Positions 7,522-54,050 of a stretch of 64,000 nucleotides of DNA are shown one piece after another. Source of the stretch: Brachycybe producta. Taxonomy: Eukaryota; Arthropoda; Diplopoda; Playtdesmida; Andrognathidae. The stretch spans positions 6,558,228 to 6,622,227 of the forward strand of contig JAUPFP010000007.1 of assembly GCA_036925085.1 (NCBI GenBank), read 5' to 3'. Both the position numbers and the translations under genes were made by a program. Under the pieces are notes generated by a model that saw nothing but the letters and a program-made list of their open reading frames with translations, was not told where the DNA came from and searched no databases. Positions within the stretch are counted from its first letter, which is position 1; each line of letters opens with the position of its first letter.

Positions 7522-7530
7522 GAAAGAATG

Positions 7531-7736
7531 ACAGGCATTTAGAAATCGGAACGAACACAAGTTGGCTCCGCCCTTTTTATGACGACCGCAACTTCTAAAT
7601 TGGTTTGTTGTGTGGTTCAACGTTGAAAAGGGCGGAGCATGTGACGTCAGACTACATAACCAACCAATAAGAAGTTGCCGGTCGTCATAAAAAGGGCGGA
7701 GCCAACTTGTGTTCGTCCCGGTTTCTAAATGCCTGT
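7531..7736. mobile_element. Palindromic GC-box MITE, copy A
   Basis: Ends are ACAGGCATTTAG and CTAAATGCCTGT, flanked by a perfect 9-bp direct repeat GAAAGAATG (7522-7530 and 7737-7745). Arms carry TTGGCTCCGCCC and its mirror GGGCGGAGCCAA; inner parts carry CCAAT-type and TGACGTCA-type sites. It has no coding capacity. Confidence 0.9.
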
Positions 7737-7882: not shown

Positions 7883-8069
7883 ACAGGCTCACTTGGCTCC
7901 GCCCTTTTTTATGACGACCGGCAACTTGTAATTGGCTGGTTATGTAGTCTGACGTTGAAAAGGGCGGAGCATGTGACGTCAGACTACATAACCAGCCAAT
8001 TAGAAGTTGCCGCTCGTCATAAAAAAGGGTGGAGCCAACTGAAGTTCTGACCGATTTCTAACTGCCTGT
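7883..8069. mobile_element. Palindromic GC-box MITE, copy B (left end shortened)
   Basis: The same core as copy A with TTGGCTCCGCCC and GGGTGGAGCCAA arms; the right end reads CTAACTGCCTGT. CTATTTTC on the left and CTATTGTC on the right look like a decayed target duplication. Confidence 0.8.
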
Positions 8070-9718: not shown

Positions 9719-9923
9719 ACAGGCATTTAGAAATCGGGACGAACACAAGTAGGCTCCGCCCTTTTTATGACGAATACAACTTCTAATTGGTTGGTTATGT
9801 AGTCTGACGTCGCATGCTCCGCCCTTTTCAACGTCGAACCACACAACAAACCAATTAGAAGTTGCCGTTCGTCATAAAAAGAGCGGAGTTAACTTGTGTT
9901 CGTCCCGATTTCTAAATGCCTGT
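9719..9923. mobile_element. Palindromic GC-box MITE, copy C
   Basis: ACAGGCATTTAG to CTAAATGCCTGT, 205 bp, flanked by ATAAGAAAC and GTAAGAAAC (8 of 9 equal). Confidence 0.88.
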
Positions 9924-18580: not shown

Positions 18581-18727
18581 CTCGTTACGATCACGCAGCT
18601 AATGCACTGCATACAGCATTAAGATAATGACGTCACCACTATGATGTACCACATTGTACTGTGGTACAAGGCGCAGGCTGTGACGTCATTTTTCTGTGCA
18701 GTGCATTAGCTGCATGATCGTAACGAG
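18581..18727. mobile_element. Palindromic element with about 30-bp ends
   Basis: CTCGTTACGATCACGCAGCT...ACTGCA at the left is mirrored by TGCAGT...GATCGTAACGAG at the right; TGACGTCA twice and a TGTACCAC/GTGGTACA hairpin lie inside. Confidence 0.75.
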
Positions 18728-20092
18728 ACCATTAGAAATCAAATTGGCTTATGTACATTGACTAGTGATTGTGTAAAATAACATTTTATACATTGAAAAC
18801 AAATTTTATGTATAAAAGAAATCCTTTCATTCTCATCTTATTTTTACTTACTTTTTTAACCTTCAGTTCATTTACTATGGTAACAATAATAACAACAACA
18901 ACAACAGCAAAGAAAACTATGACAAAATATATTCACACAACAATAAATAATAATTACCATATTAAGAGATTTATATTTATTTATGCATATATATCTTCAT
19001 GAATCAATGCAAATGATTCGAAGAATTTAATTAATAGAGCGCGATTAGAAGCACCTCTTATATAATTTAAAATGAATCTTTGAAACGACATCTTCAATTG
19101 ATGCCGCAACAAAGACACTTAGAGTGTGACGTCATCCTTGTAGATTACGCAGAAAGAAAGAGAGAGCGAGATCATGCCGTTGTCATAGCAACCTTCTCTC
19201 TTTTTCTGTTAGTTATAATGGCGCGCATGCAGACGCACGCATGCGCAGTTCAATCTTTTCTCATCCTATCTATACGGCATGCATGGTTTTTCTTGCCTAT
19301 TTTTGTTTTGTTTTTTTTCTTCAGAAACCCATCATGTCAAAGTGTCATCTGATCACAATAGAAGAATTTTGTAGGCAGTAGAAATAGGGCAAAAAAAAAG
19401 TACAGAAAACAAACTCCAGATCTATGTTATTTCTTCCATTTTCCACCATTTTTATTTCGTCAGAAAATGAGATGATGGGGAAAATATGCAAAAAAAAAAA
19501 AAAGTTGGCAGATATTTTAAAGTTTTCTTTAATAAAAAAAAGGCAATAAAAAATACAAAATGACACATTTGTGACAAGTTTTTTCTTCTTTTCCTGCTTA
19601 TAAAAAAATCAGCAAAAAAAAATGTTAAACTATTTCATGTTCGCAAGGGCGCTCATGCGCCACATCTATACAACAGCTTCGCAGTTAATGATCGAAGGCT
19701 AAATGATTACTATTTTTGGTAGTTGTAGTGAAGTTCAGACTGCAATATTTACTTTCTTTAGCTTTAAACCTAAGCTTTGCAGTTGCGTTTTTGTAGCTTT
19801 TTATGTTACTGCATTGTAATGCATCTTTAAAAAGCCAACTGCTGCTACTTGCTTTATGAAGCTTCAATTTGGTTTTTGCAATTTGCAACATTGAAATACT
19901 AACTAACCAATCAGATCCCATGAAAATTGGAAAGACAGGTCACCTGATGATGACGTAGCAGCTACGTATCGTTTATGAGGAGGCTTGCAGGTTAGATTTT
20001 GACGCAAATGTGTAGTACAGTAAAGCCCTGCTTTTAGGCAATCTGTTAATATGGCGCTTTTCCGCCCCAAGTGCTCAACAGCTGAGTAAAAC

Positions 20093-20270
20093 ACATTGGC
20101 TCCGCCCTTTTTTATGACGAACGCAACTTCTAATTGGTTGGTTATGTAGTCTGACGTCACTTGCTCCGCCTTTTTCAACGTCGAACCACACAACAAACCA
20201 ATTAGAAGTTGCCGGTCGTCATAAAAAGGCCGGAGCCAACTTGTGTTCGTCCCGATTTCTAAATAACTAT
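20093..20270. mobile_element. Palindromic GC-box MITE, copy D (left end lost)
   Basis: The core is present; the outer left end has decayed. GAGTAAAAC and GCGTAAAAC (8 of 9 equal) flank it. Confidence 0.8.
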
Positions 20271-23705: not shown

Positions 23706-23903
23706 ACAGACAAATAAAGACAGAGAGATACAGTTGTTTGCCCCGCCCTTTTATGAGCGTCAGACCAAACATCAACCAATTGGAAATTGAAAAGGGCGGG
23801 GCATGTGACATCAAACCATAAAACAAACCAATTAGAAGTTGCCATTCCTCAGAAAAGGTGCGGTGCAAACGACTGTATCTTACTACTGTCTTTACTTGCC
23901 GGT
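23706..23903. mobile_element. Divergent GC-box MITE, copy E
   Basis: Long outer arms (left ACAGACAAATAAAGACAGAG, mirrored at the right end) enclose TTTGCCCCGCCCTTTTATGA and a GGGCGGGGCATG centre. ACATTTTC flanks both ends (23698-23705 and 23904-23911). It appears to sit inside the 21-bp minisatellite that follows. Confidence 0.78.
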
Positions 23904-34875: not shown

Positions 34876-35083
34876 ACAGGCGGTTAGAAATAGGTGAAAA
34901 CTTCAGTTGGTTCCGCCCTTGTTATGACGACTGGCAACTTCTAATTGGCTGGTTATGAAGTCTGACGTCACAATGCTCCGCCCTTTTCAATGTCAGACTA
35001 CATAACCAGCCAATTTAGAAGTTGCCAGTCGTCATAAAATGGGCGGATCCAACTGAAGTTTTCACCTATTTCTAACTGCCTGT
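34876..35083. mobile_element. Palindromic GC-box MITE, copy F
   Basis: ACAGGCGGTTAG to CTAACTGCCTGT, 208 bp, with a perfect 9-bp duplication CTAAAAACC on both sides. Confidence 0.9.
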
Positions 35084-39244: not shown

Positions 39245-39449
39245 ACAGGCAATTAGAAATCGGGACAAACAGAAGTTGGCTCCGCCCTTGTTATGACGAC
39301 CGGCAACTACTATTTGGTTTGTTGTGTGGTTCAACGTTGAAAAGGGAGGAGCATGTGACGTCAGACTACATAACCAATCAATTAGAAGTTGCGTTCGTCA
39401 TAAAAAGGGCGGAGCCAACTTCTGTTTGTCCCGATTTCTAATTGCCTGT
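39245..39449. mobile_element. Palindromic GC-box MITE, copy G
   Basis: ACAGGCAATTAG to CTAATTGCCTGT, 205 bp, flanked by CTCACAAAC and CTGACAAAC (8 of 9 equal). It begins a run of three related elements. Confidence 0.88.
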
Positions 39450-39479: not shown

Positions 39480-39673
39480 ACAGGCATCTGTAGACAGCTT
39501 CAGGATTTCTTTGGCTCCACCCTTTTATGAGCGTCAGACCAAATATCAATCAATTAGAAATAAAAAAGCCGGGGTATGTTACATCAGACCCAGTAACAAA
39601 CCAATCAGAAATTGATGACGCTTATAAAAGGGTGGAGCCAAAAAAAATTCTGAAGCTGTCTACAGACGCCTGT
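39480..39673. mobile_element. Divergent GC-box MITE, copy H
   Basis: ACAGGCATCTGTAGACAGC to its mirror GCTGTCTACAGACGCCTGT, with a perfect 9-bp duplication GGCACTTGG. The inner part is of the TTATGAGCGTCAGACCAA type, shared with copies E and I. Confidence 0.9.
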
Positions 39674-39696: not shown

Positions 39697-39867
39697 ACAG
39701 GCAAGTGTGCTAAGCAGAATACAGTCGTTTGCCCCGCCCTTTTATGAGCGTCAGACCAAATATTAACCAATCAGAAATTGAAAAGGGCAGGGAACGTGAC
39801 GTCAGGCCAAATAAACCAATTACAAGTTGCCGTACCTCATAAAAGGGCGGGGCAAACTGACTAACTC
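39697..39867. mobile_element. Divergent GC-box MITE, copy I
   Basis: Starts ACAGGCAAGTG; the core from TTTGCCCCGCCC to GGGCGGGGCAAA is intact. The right end has decayed, so the end is approximate. Confidence 0.7.
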
Positions 39868-41119: not shown

Positions 41120-41326
41120 ACAGGCAATTAGAAATCGAGACAAAACAGAAGTTGGCTCCGCCCTTTTTATGACGAACACAACTTCTAATTGGTTGGTTAT
41201 GTAATCTGACGTCACATGCTCCGCCCTTTTCAGCGTCGTATCACACAACAAACCAATTAGAAGTTGCCGGTCGTCATAAGAAGGGGCGGAGCCAACTTCT
41301 GTTTGTCCCGATTTCTAATTGCCTGT
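41120..41326. mobile_element. Palindromic GC-box MITE, copy J
   Basis: ACAGGCAATTAG to CTAATTGCCTGT, 207 bp. Clear target duplication was not seen (CTCCCTACT and CCTCTAACC). Confidence 0.87.
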
Positions 41327-41865: not shown

Positions 41866-42578
41866 ATGCACCTTAGAAAAGGCCTAGCTTAAAACCGAGG
41901 ATCAAAGCTATATTTTTTCTAAAAAAAAATCTAAACAAATCTAGCTGCAACCTCAAAAAAATGGTCATATTATCTAAAAATTCAACTCAAGTTGGGGCCA
42001 CAATTCCTCAAAAGAAATCAAACACAAATGCGACGAAGAATAAGAAATATTTGAATGTTTTGTGTAATATCAAAGAAAAATGTCTCATGACGTCATCTTA
42101 TCTCAAACTACATTAGTAATGATTGAATTTCATTAAATAACATTTAAAACGTAAAATAATCGAGAACGAATTACAATTTACCAAGTGAACTACAAATAAT
42201 ATTTCTCATGGCAATTATAATTCCACATCTATTGTTCAATTTTCCTTTTTTTATAAAAATTCTTTCGTATTTTAATTAAGATAATTACAGACTGCTTGCT
42301 GAATGCATATTTTTATAATGATTAATTACACTAGCAGGGATTTTACTAAATAAAGTGGAATAAGAAATAAAGATCCATTGTGATCTTTTTTTTGTTCAAT
42401 CTAAATTTGTGTGGTCCACATTTAAATTTACATATATTTTTCTTTTCAATTTATTTCAGGACGTTTTTACGTTGATATCTTTTAAAATAAGCTTTTTATG
42501 TTAAGTTTGAAAATGACAAATTGAAGCAAGACGATATTTTTTTTTTAATTTTACGTCTATAAAAATTTATTTTAAAAC

Positions 42579-42942
42579 TAGTGGGGTAACCCGTCATAAA
42601 TGACAGGAGCAAAATTCACAAGCAGTTGTGCGCATGCGCGTCGTTTTCTTCCTTTTTTTTACTCCTTTTATTTCAATTTCAGTCACCCCCTCCCACTTTT
42701 TCCCCCTCCACGTTTCTCCCCCCCCCTTCTACACTTTCCAACCTTTTCCCCTCTCCACTTTAATATCGTGGGGTTCTTGGATGGGGAGAGTGCAACATAC
42801 AGTTGACCTTGAGGAAAAAAAAGCGGATCATTTATTCGTTTAAATTTATATAAATTCCGACGTGTTTCAAGGTTGTACAGCGTTATTACAGACAGACACC
42901 CACACACGCACACAGATCTGGCTTAATATATATATATATATA
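42579..42942 (+). repeat. Dispersed repeat ending in a TA run, copy 1
   Basis: GTGGGGTAACCCGTCATAAA to GGCTTAATATATATA. Shares most of its length with 53444-54050, including TGCGCATGCGCGTCG and CCCCTCCCACTTTTTCCCC. Confidence 0.8.
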
Positions 42943-44712
42943 ATTATTAACAACTCGTGCAAACGACTCATTACATTAACCATTGTTTAAATTTCTGAAG
43001 AACGAAGTTATCTCAACTGCACTGACACAATGTTGTTAACCACATTACTAACTGGTTAAATACGTCACTTAATTGTGTTCAAACTAAATTTAACTTACAA
43101 GTAAAACAACATGGCGGATAGCGAGAGCAATCAGTTTTTGACTGAATGAGGAATAGAAATTTCACAAAATGGACAACTTGTTTAACAGGAAGTGAAACCA
43201 AACAGAAAATGACACAATCATTTAACCATAGTTAAAAGTTTCTTTTTTTAAATGGAAATACAAACAGTACCCTACTTCCAGCTCGTCTGCAGTTAACTAT
43301 AACTTTGGTTAAATAACTGCAGTTCATTTTTTTGGAACGGAAACCTGGTATTAGTTTCAATCCTAAAGCGCAGAATAAACAGAAATCAAAAATAATTTGT
43401 TTATAAAAACACATTCATTCAACCTTTGTACACCTCTATGACCTTGAACAACATTTTTTATTTCAAAATACAAAATGGCGTCCAAAATACTTACAAAAAT
43501 GTGAAAAGATATTTCAATTAGAAATAAATATAGCCAACAATCTAGAATTTCAATATTTATAAATAAATCAAAACTGCACACCAATTTTGGATCAGGATAA
43601 AAGGATGAACATTATGGGTAATCCGAAAACCTGAAACAGAATGCATATAGAAATGGATAAACACAAAAAAAACCTTGGAATGAACACTATTAAAACATGG
43701 CTGCATCAAACTCACCTAATACAGATGTATAAAAAAAAGTATAGTGTTCATCCAATTCTGTAAACATTCTGTTTCGGGTTATAGAGTTTACCCCGAATGT
43801 TCATCCTTTTAATCTCTCCCCAACATTATTTTTTGTTTCAGAAATATAATAAGCAACATGAAATTAAAAAAAAAACAATTTGTATAAAATTGTGATACAA
43901 TAATAAATAGAATTCTCAATTTTACTAAATTTTTATATTCTGTGTCTCATAATTAATTCATATGAAAATTATTTCTAATAAAATTCAAATTTGAATATTA
44001 TAACTTTGAATAAAGAAAAAAAAAATTCCTTTCAAGGTCAAAAGTCGCTCGATATTCAAAATGGCGTCGAATAGAGAAGAAGACAAAAAAACCGCCAAAA
44101 TAATCGTACCCAAACGCCTTCAGTTGCCTCCCCCCCCCCTTTCCAAAAAACCCCTAAAGGAAATTTAAGAGAGGAATGAACGAAAACGAAAAATATACAC
44201 CACGTTAACACTTTAGAAAAACGTGCTAAACAAGAAAAACATGATAAACATTTATTTTACAATCTCTCTCCCTCCCTCCCCCCCCCCCACACTAAAAAAA
44301 AAACATAAAACGCCATCATTTAAAAATGGCGGCAAAACTTTTCAATTCAAAAATGACTTCACGCACATTCCATCAATACTAAAGGGGAGAGGGAGAGATA
44401 GAGAGAGAACGACATGCAGAGAGAGAAAAAAATCTCCGAGACACAGTTAGGAAAAATTAGCTCCACCCACACTCGATCGTCGCATAGCAACGCATGAGAC
44501 AAAACCTTATGATTGACAGATGAATACTGTAAGGAAAAAAAAAAAACGGCTAAAAGGGTAAAAAAAAAAAATCACAGTTGTATCACGTTTAAAGTCAAGA
44601 AATTTTTATGATTACGTTCTCCTTTACGAAAGAAAAGAGGACTGAATCGTGAAATGATGACAGAAAGATGAATTTGAATAGAAAAAAGAAAAAAAAAAAA
44701 GATGTCTCTTAC
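42943..44712. other. No gene recognised
   Basis: AT-rich; at 43595-43810 AAGGATGAACATT...GGGTAATCCGAAAACC is mirrored by GGGTTATAGAG...AATGTTCATCCTTTTAA, an imperfect palindrome likely to be another MITE. Confidence 0.45.

Positions 44713-46704: not shown

Positions 46705-47534
<830 letters not shown>

Positions 47535-53363: not shown

Positions 53364-53442
<79 letters not shown>
53364..53442. repeat. TA microsatellite
   Basis: About 39 uninterrupted AT units. Confidence 0.97.
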
Positions 53443-53443
<1 letters not shown>

Positions 53444-53444
<1 letters not shown>

Positions 53445-53991
53445 CTTGTGGGGTAACCCGTCATAAATGACGGGAGCGAAATTCACAGGCAATTGTGCCC
53501 AGCATTAGAATTTCTTTTCCTCCGCCCTTTTATGACGTCAGACCAAGTAACAAACCAATTAGAAATTGATGACGTTCATAAAAGGGCTGAGCAAAAGAAA
53601 TTCTAATGCTGGGCACGATTGCCTGTGATAAACTGTAGTTTAATTTTGCTACTATTATCCCCTCCCCTTTTTATATTTGAAAGAGAAAATGAGTTTTTCA
53701 TTTTCTCTGGTGTGCGCATGCGCGTCGTTTGTTCCTTTTTAACTCCTTTCATTTCAATTTCAGTCACCCCCTCCCACTTTTTCCCCCTCCACGTTTCTCT
53801 CTCCCTCCTCTACACTTTCCAACCTTTTCCCCTCTCCAATTTAATATCATGGGGTTCTTGGATGGGAAGAGTGCAACATATAGTTGACCTTGAGAAAAAA
53901 AGCGGTTCATTTATTCATTTAAATTTATATAAATTCCGACGTGCTTCAAGGTTGGTACAGTGTTAAACACACACACATACACAGACCTGGC

Positions 53992-54050
<59 letters not shown>
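53444..54050 (+). repeat. Dispersed repeat ending in a TA run, copy 2, with MITE K inside
   Basis: Matches 42579-42942 at both ends and in its body; it has extra DNA at 53485-53700 (MITE K and a T-rich piece). TA microsatellites lie on both sides. Confidence 0.8.
53485..53626. mobile_element. Short GC-box MITE, copy K, within a longer dispersed repeat
   Basis: ACAGGCAATTGTGCCCAGC to its mirror GCTGGGCACGATTGCCTGT, 142 bp, with CTCCGCCCTTTTATGACGTC inside. It lies within the segment that is otherwise shared with 42579-42942. Confidence 0.82.

Follow-up and report, generated by a model that had tools for sequence, protein, structure and literature searches.

Related MITE families are usually recognised by common ends that surround variable interiors. 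Among MULEs, maize Mutator generates a 9-bp target-site duplication (TSD) (PMC2774946), and the Mutator TIRs contain both a MURA site of about 32 bp and promoters (PMC3310237). TSDs measure 8–9 bp in mosquito MULEs (PMC5225508) and 8–11 bp in MULEs in general (PMC6446971); Table 1 of the latter source gives 9-bp TSDs and a PHD finger for Rehavkus.

Here we describe a real and very abundant group of MITEs, assigned to the MULE type on the basis of its TSDs, that follows an unusual pattern: the core is conserved, the ends vary, and the spacing between them is nearly constant. The window, i.e. the whole stretch of DNA that was analysed, is 64,000 nt long.

The element at 7531–7736 and its copies

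The earlier note on this DNA had placed at 7531–7736 a palindromic MITE whose sites resemble those of a promoter. These coordinates are exact: they delimit a palindromic element of 206 bp with inverted arms and a TSD whose left and right 9-bp copies match perfectly. Its features are as follows.

7522–7530, no strand: left 9-bp target-site duplication GAAAGAATG
7531–7736, + strand: MITE copy, 206 bp, ends ACAGGCA...TGCCTGT; starts ACAGGCATTTAG and finishes CTAAATGCCTGT
7531–7563, + strand: left terminal segment of 33 bp (ACAGGCA followed by 26 bases specific to the family), up to the outer GC box
7564–7573, − strand: outer GC box GGCTCCGCCC, 33 bp from the left end
7599–7603, − strand: CCAAT (read ATTGG)
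7630–7638, + strand: central GC box GGGCGGAGC
7642–7649, + strand: TGACGTCA, CRE-type site
7664–7668, + strand: CCAAT
7694–7703, + strand: outer GC box GGGCGGAGCC, 33 bp from the right end
7704–7736, − strand: right 33-bp terminal segment
7737–7745, no strand: right 9-bp target-site duplication GAAAGAATG

The arms at 7531–7623 and 7644–7736 are 83% complementary over 93 nt, making the element a near-palindrome, and as a single DNA strand it folds with −89.6 kcal/mol (z −20 against shuffles). The GC box, CCAAT and CRE sites of an Sp1/NF-Y/CREB-type promoter are present in the element. The mirror order that had been proposed for this kit holds less well: there are three GC boxes in this copy, and TGACGTCA, present once, is off-centre at 7642–7649, the mirror position being occupied by CAACGTTG.

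The main family has seven copies within the window. The other six are listed below, followed by four related elements; together the eleven cover 2,150 bp or 3.4% of the window.

7893–8069, + strand: second copy, left terminal segment lost
9719–9923, − strand: full copy, near 9-bp TSD (one mismatch), without exact TGACGTCA
20090–20264, − strand: copy with one end lost
34876–35083, − strand: full copy, TSD CTAAAAACC
39245–39449, + strand: full copy, near 9-bp TSD (one mismatch)
41120–41326, − strand: full copy, outside the TSD-bearing pairs of the structural scan
39480–39673, + strand: family A (related), pair of core units in direct order, TIR ACAGGCATCTGTAGACAGC..., TSD GGCACTTGG
39697–39860, + strand: related element, TIR ACAGGCAAGTGTGCTAAGC..., right end lost
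23706–23903, + strand: family C (related), pair of core units in direct order, exact 8-bp flanking repeat
53485–53626, + strand: family B (related), a single core unit, within a larger young repeat

The GC box, CCAAT and TGACGTCA recur in the window copies, as the earlier note had claimed. Exact GGGCGGAGC occurs in all seven main-family copies, one to three times in each, CCAAT likewise in all seven and at least twice in six of them, and exact TGACGTCA in every copy apart from 9719–9923. The window totals of 14 for GGGCGGAGC and 17 for TGACGTCA compare with means of 0 and 0.7 in 20 first-order Markov resamples; 9 of the 17 TGACGTCA sites fall outside this MITE group. CCAAT alone was not enriched in the window (164 vs a mean of 176 in 20 such resamples).

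Genome counts refer to an assembly of 295.3 Mb in 442 contigs. A copy count across this assembly, the check suggested at the outset, returned 9,082 + 9,094 = 18,176 matches to the 18-bp end with up to two mismatches and 2 + 2 = 4 matches to the reversed control. At the same tolerance the 18-bp CCAAT unit had 26,763 matches (control 15), and a 24-mer of the related families had 2,514 (control 0). Since a main-family element has two ends and two units, the number of elements at these thresholds is estimated at about nine to thirteen thousand. The element is thus a MITE by its short length, TIRs, TSD and many copies.

Some copies have been multiplied by other repeats. The family-B element lies near the start of a larger young repeat that begins with ACTAGTGGGGTAACCCGTCATAAATGACGGGAGC and is found at 53440–54016 and 42573–42947; the carrier copy at 42573 has apparently lost most of the MITE. 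Forty of 983 candidates for the family-B stretch were scored, and all 39 other genome copies among them were 99% identical to the window copy. Ten fetched family-B copies (L084–L093) have carrier sequence on both sides, the left part being shortened in L088. Six main-family copies (L020, L031, L033, L034, L035 and L045) have common flanks, GCTTTATAC..., so a single insertion has seemingly been multiplied inside another repeat. Rfam gave no match in the window at the gathering threshold; miRNA-family matches at 53483–53628 are under the cut-off of each family and probably reflect the hairpin. An exon of a ubiquitin-ribosomal protein L40 fusion gene at 47164–47529 was the sole Pfam match among eight window ORFs.

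Core, ends and target-site duplications

The four families compared have in common their ACAGGCA ends and a core unit of about 70 bp with a CRE-like site, ACCAATTAGAA and TCATAAAAGGGCGG. The general layout is an ACAGGCA end, a 26-base spacer, an outer block GCYCCGCCC-TTTTATGA(G)..., one or two units of about 70 bp, and the mirror-image block and end. Two inverted units are found in the main family, two units in direct order in A and C, and one unit in B. Relatives A, B and C start with ACAGGCA or a sequence one base off, continue with 26 differing bases and then reach the GC box. Among ten end types, mean pairwise identity at positions 8–31 is 46% (8–75%) compared with 25% for shuffles, so the end spacers are not wholly unrelated; the inner block averages 84% over 13 units.

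The spacing between end and outer block is nearly constant. Fetched DNA contained 121 GC-box sites, of which 98 had an ACAGGCA-like end 20–59 bp away, and 80 of these 98 lay at exactly 33 bp, a count that comes mostly from the main family, includes both ends of an element and is not made up of independent cases. A genome pattern with 12–40 free bases gave 491 matches (control 0), and the spacing was 33 bp in 73 of 100 among the matches listed.

The two ends of one element usually belong together. The same end type was present on both sides in 100 of 103 complete classified elements, ten of them being carrier-multiplied family-B copies. Within an element, the match between its ends extends over no more than the outermost 57 bp in family A and 51 bp in family C. 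In 37 copies not chosen by similarity, ends differed by 10.8% within a copy and by 18.7% between copies (0 of 5,000 permutations), as expected of paired-end subfamilies or of exchange between arms. Spacer types are mixed in some main-family copies, and the chimera L056:5140–5333 joins a left end of type B to a right end of type A. It is flanked by a 7-bp direct repeat, TAGGTTT, and by no direct repeat of 8–9 bp. This single chimera suggests that one machinery may accept different spacers.

TSDs were scored in 89 elements with anchored ends and distinct flanks, 15 of 104 having been left out because of common flanks. An exact TSD of 9 bp was found in 26 elements, of 8 bp in ten and of 10 bp in one, and none was found in 52; 20,000 random pairings yielded no match at 9 bp and four at 8 bp. 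A structural scan of the window and 26 loci returned 17 ACAGGC...GCCTGT pairs bordered by a 9-bp TSD. The reversed-motif control returned 13, all within one tandem array at L058. One of the 17 pairs, L058:1865–4818 (2,954 bp), was dropped as a candidate element because of its poor end match and A-run TSD. A profile search of the genome with PF10551 (MULE) gave 21 matches over the cut-off, and one MULE protein gave 33 match rows. The Merlin IS1595-type transposase PF12762 had no genome match, and Merlin was rejected as the source superfamily. TSDs of 8–9 bp, the 21 MULE-domain matches and the zero Merlin matches together point to a MULE-type element, with membership resting on the TSDs.

Seven MULE loci were read: six with C2H2-like ORFs and L068, whose ends lie beyond the DNA read. 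No autonomous partner with ACAGGCA-type ends was seen around the ORF in the stretches read at these seven loci. TIR-plus-TSD scans around the six ORFs gave only weak or low-complexity pairs, and these ORFs were rejected as direct partners. When aligned, the six ORFs show two C2H2-like Cys/His sets without variation; C2H2-type Pfam families match four of the seven MULE ORFs at E ≤ 0.01, mostly under the curated cut-off. A composite MITE-MULE-MITE transposon at L073 was ruled out, the right-hand MITE having its own TSD GTTATAAAA. Two facing MITE-type ends 3.1 kb apart at G000:C4:8198014-8201098 mark a candidate longer element, which overlaps none of the PF10551 matches or MULE-protein match rows.

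At L068:1-7829 (G000:C2:4231200-4239028), two head-to-head MULE ORFs of 1,088 aa lie in inverted arms that are 99.8% identical and measure at least about 3.8 kb. The one ORF scanned matches the MULE domain at E 1.7e-6 and, under Pfam's cut-off, the PHD finger. Inverted MULE pairs resembling L068 also occur on C5 and C38. Position C2:4228971 is unlikely to be an end of the L068 palindrome, as the matches listed place no exact counterpart next to the C5 copy. Contig C1 contains, at L060:1327-1646, an interrupted (TTAGG)n array.

Motif conservation and the role of the core

One refutation test named in the earlier note was whether motif bases decay as fast as other bases, and its outcome was against selection on single copies. 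In 76 aligned main-family copies, rare variants occur at a rate of 3.2% in the motifs and of 3.1% elsewhere in the core; when the motif mask is shifted circularly, 64% of the shifts give a value at or under that of the motifs. Rare variants represent decay after insertion. On average, divergence amounts to 3.5% for motif positions and 4.8% for the remaining core positions, a contrast that 9% of shifts match. The 76 comprise 41 copies not chosen by similarity and others from the best 40 genome copies, which were chosen by similarity; the 41 come from the window and from stretches picked by an exact TIR match or MULE match and are unselected for the interior only. Five copies with L020 flanks, the duplicates L001–L008 and BLAST matches covering <165 query bases were left out. 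CpG decay was rejected as the cause of the motif pattern (divergence 4.5% at CpG and 3.3% at non-CpG motif positions, 9.5% and 4.2% in the other core). Since motif and other core bases decay equally, there is no motif-specific retention in single copies, and nothing shows that individual copies serve the host.

Between families the motifs are better kept. Conservation over 25 units, drawn from 14 elements, is 93% for motif columns and 83% for the unit's other columns, a result reached by 0 of 59 shifts; five false anchor matches had been removed, and the units are related rather than independent. The inner GC-box columns, outside the region of this test, are only 40–52% conserved because the box sits in either orientation. 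CCAAT is exact in 21 of the 25 units, exact TGACGTCA is found in nine and TGAGCGTCA in five. TAG follows CCAAT in 18 of 25, and this is not known to be the preferred NF-Y flank. Conservation of the flanks AATTAGAA and TCATAAAA is roughly on a par with that of CCAAT, and non-motif bases of the inner block are 80% conserved between families, so the signal is not specific to the factor motifs. These results thus support conservation of the core in the source elements, and they support the specific Sp1/NF-Y/CREB reading only partly. Motif conservation between families agrees better with a function that benefits the source transposon than with one that benefits individual copies. Overall, the conserved middle hints at importance to the element, and single copies decay like ordinary dead DNA.

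TGACGTCA is also frequent beyond the group. It occurs 35,739 times in the genome, compared with 7,349 for the reversed control, and 35 times in 297 kb of fetched DNA with the group masked, where trinucleotides predict 2.3 (15-fold); TA runs apart, it is the most over-represented palindromic 8-mer in this masked DNA. Nine of the 35 sites lie in or beside inverted repeats, belonging to five elements, a modest excess over random positions (15 of 150). An unrelated palindromic element at window 18581–18727, with ends CGTTACGATCA...GCTAATGCACTGCA, has TGACGTCA at 18628 and 18681.

The explanation that we prefer, and to which we give an even chance of being right, is a non-autonomous MULE-type MITE group that would combine a transposase site in the outer block with a CCAAT/CRE promoter or enhancer of the TIR serving the transposon. 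The outer GC-box block, symmetric at both ends, is the putative transposase binding site, since recognition at both ends needs a stretch that is common to both ends of A and C. The ACCAATTAGAA part is highly conserved, yet not common to both ends in these two families, which argues for a second function. The CCAAT/CRE unit could derive from the source transposon's TIR and act as a promoter or enhancer; it might keep source copies transcribed or accessible, as Mutator TIRs pair a transposase site with a promoter. Any promoter activity would be better read as serving the transposon than the host. After insertion, most copies would decay neutrally and a few may by chance affect their neighbours.

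Several other readings have to be weighed. One takes the whole core as a transposase-binding array only, in which GC-rich and CGTCA sites would be bound by a zinc-finger MULE transposase and the likeness to Sp1/NF-Y/CREB sites would be incidental. The outer block lies 33 bp from the end in most anchored cases, conservation reaches beyond the factor motifs, and the MULE ORFs carry the C2H2-like sets and mostly sub-cut-off Pfam matches described above; moreover, MURA binds its site of about 32 bp within the maize TIR (PMC3310237). Still, ACCAATTAGAA is among the best conserved parts but asymmetric at the two ends of the direct-order families A and C, which counts against an array because a simple end-recognition site would need symmetry, and we think this reading somewhat unlikely. 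It is also unlikely, and more so, that the long-lived part of the lineage is the promoter-like unit and not the terminal repeat, as a selfish CRE/CCAAT/GC promoter that goes on acquiring new ends at a near-constant 33 bp, and that unrelated elements perhaps converge on CREB/ATF-type sites for germline-active chromatin. Such convergence may have occurred given the excess of TGACGTCA outside the group, partly in unrelated palindromic elements.

Recombination could account for the common core if ends had been swapped onto a common interior without functional constraint. The L056 chimera and the mixed spacer types of some main-family copies are what such swapping would leave, but same-type ends in 100 of the 103 complete elements (ten of them carrier-multiplied) speak against it, and swapping alone leaves the excess of motif columns over other unit columns unexplained; we regard this origin as quite improbable. 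The same caution, and slightly more of it, applies to the earlier note's proposal of portable promoters that work in both directions, or of enhancers, with the host DNA around many insertions as their target. It would agree with a motif set in both arms and with group elements upstream of MULE ORFs at L073 (41 bp away, with its own TSD), at L069 (some 420 bp) and, as a fragment, at L071 (some 530 bp), but three of five MULE loci is a small, post hoc count, and motif positions within the family decay like the remaining core. L070 and L072 have no group element upstream of the MULE ORF in the stretches read. ORF bounds were taken from stop to stop; L056 is contiguous too, but biased, having been fetched for a TIR match. 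Insertion near the 5' ends of MULE ORFs is suggestive, with too few cases for a claim. More than 26,000 CCAAT-unit matches in a 295-Mb genome would also be a large reservoir of possible regulatory sites, even with most copies inert.

Comparison with described systems

A literature search found no description of this MITE group, which does not establish its absence from print. Pack-MULEs are MULE-type elements with an insert. The present group resembles them in its MULE-type character and in a core that is GC-rich within a window of 31–37% GC; no host gene fragment was identified in the core, and capture of a host promoter in the manner of a Pack-MULE is a possibility. L068, with its MULE domain and sub-cut-off PHD match in two near-identical inverted arms, resembles the Rehavkus group; any relation of this locus to the MITE would be hypothetical. 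The maize Mutator/MuDR and Mu elements are alike in their 9-bp TSDs and, in Mutator, a TIR with an internal transposase site and a promoter (PMC3310237). In contrast to them, the elements described here measure about 140–210 bp, are without a known partner, and have a terminal spacer that differs between families while the core is kept. The Muta MULEs of Aedes aegypti likewise have 8–9 bp TSDs, repeats internal to the TIR in many families and hundreds of non-autonomous derivatives; in the Muta1 derivatives shown in that source (PMC5225508) the TIR is kept and the inside varies, whereas here the inside is kept and the TIR spacer varies. In conclusion, the usual relation among MITE families is reversed in this group: the interior is common and the ends vary at near-constant spacing, which makes end recognition separable from the conserved part and both of them testable in one element.
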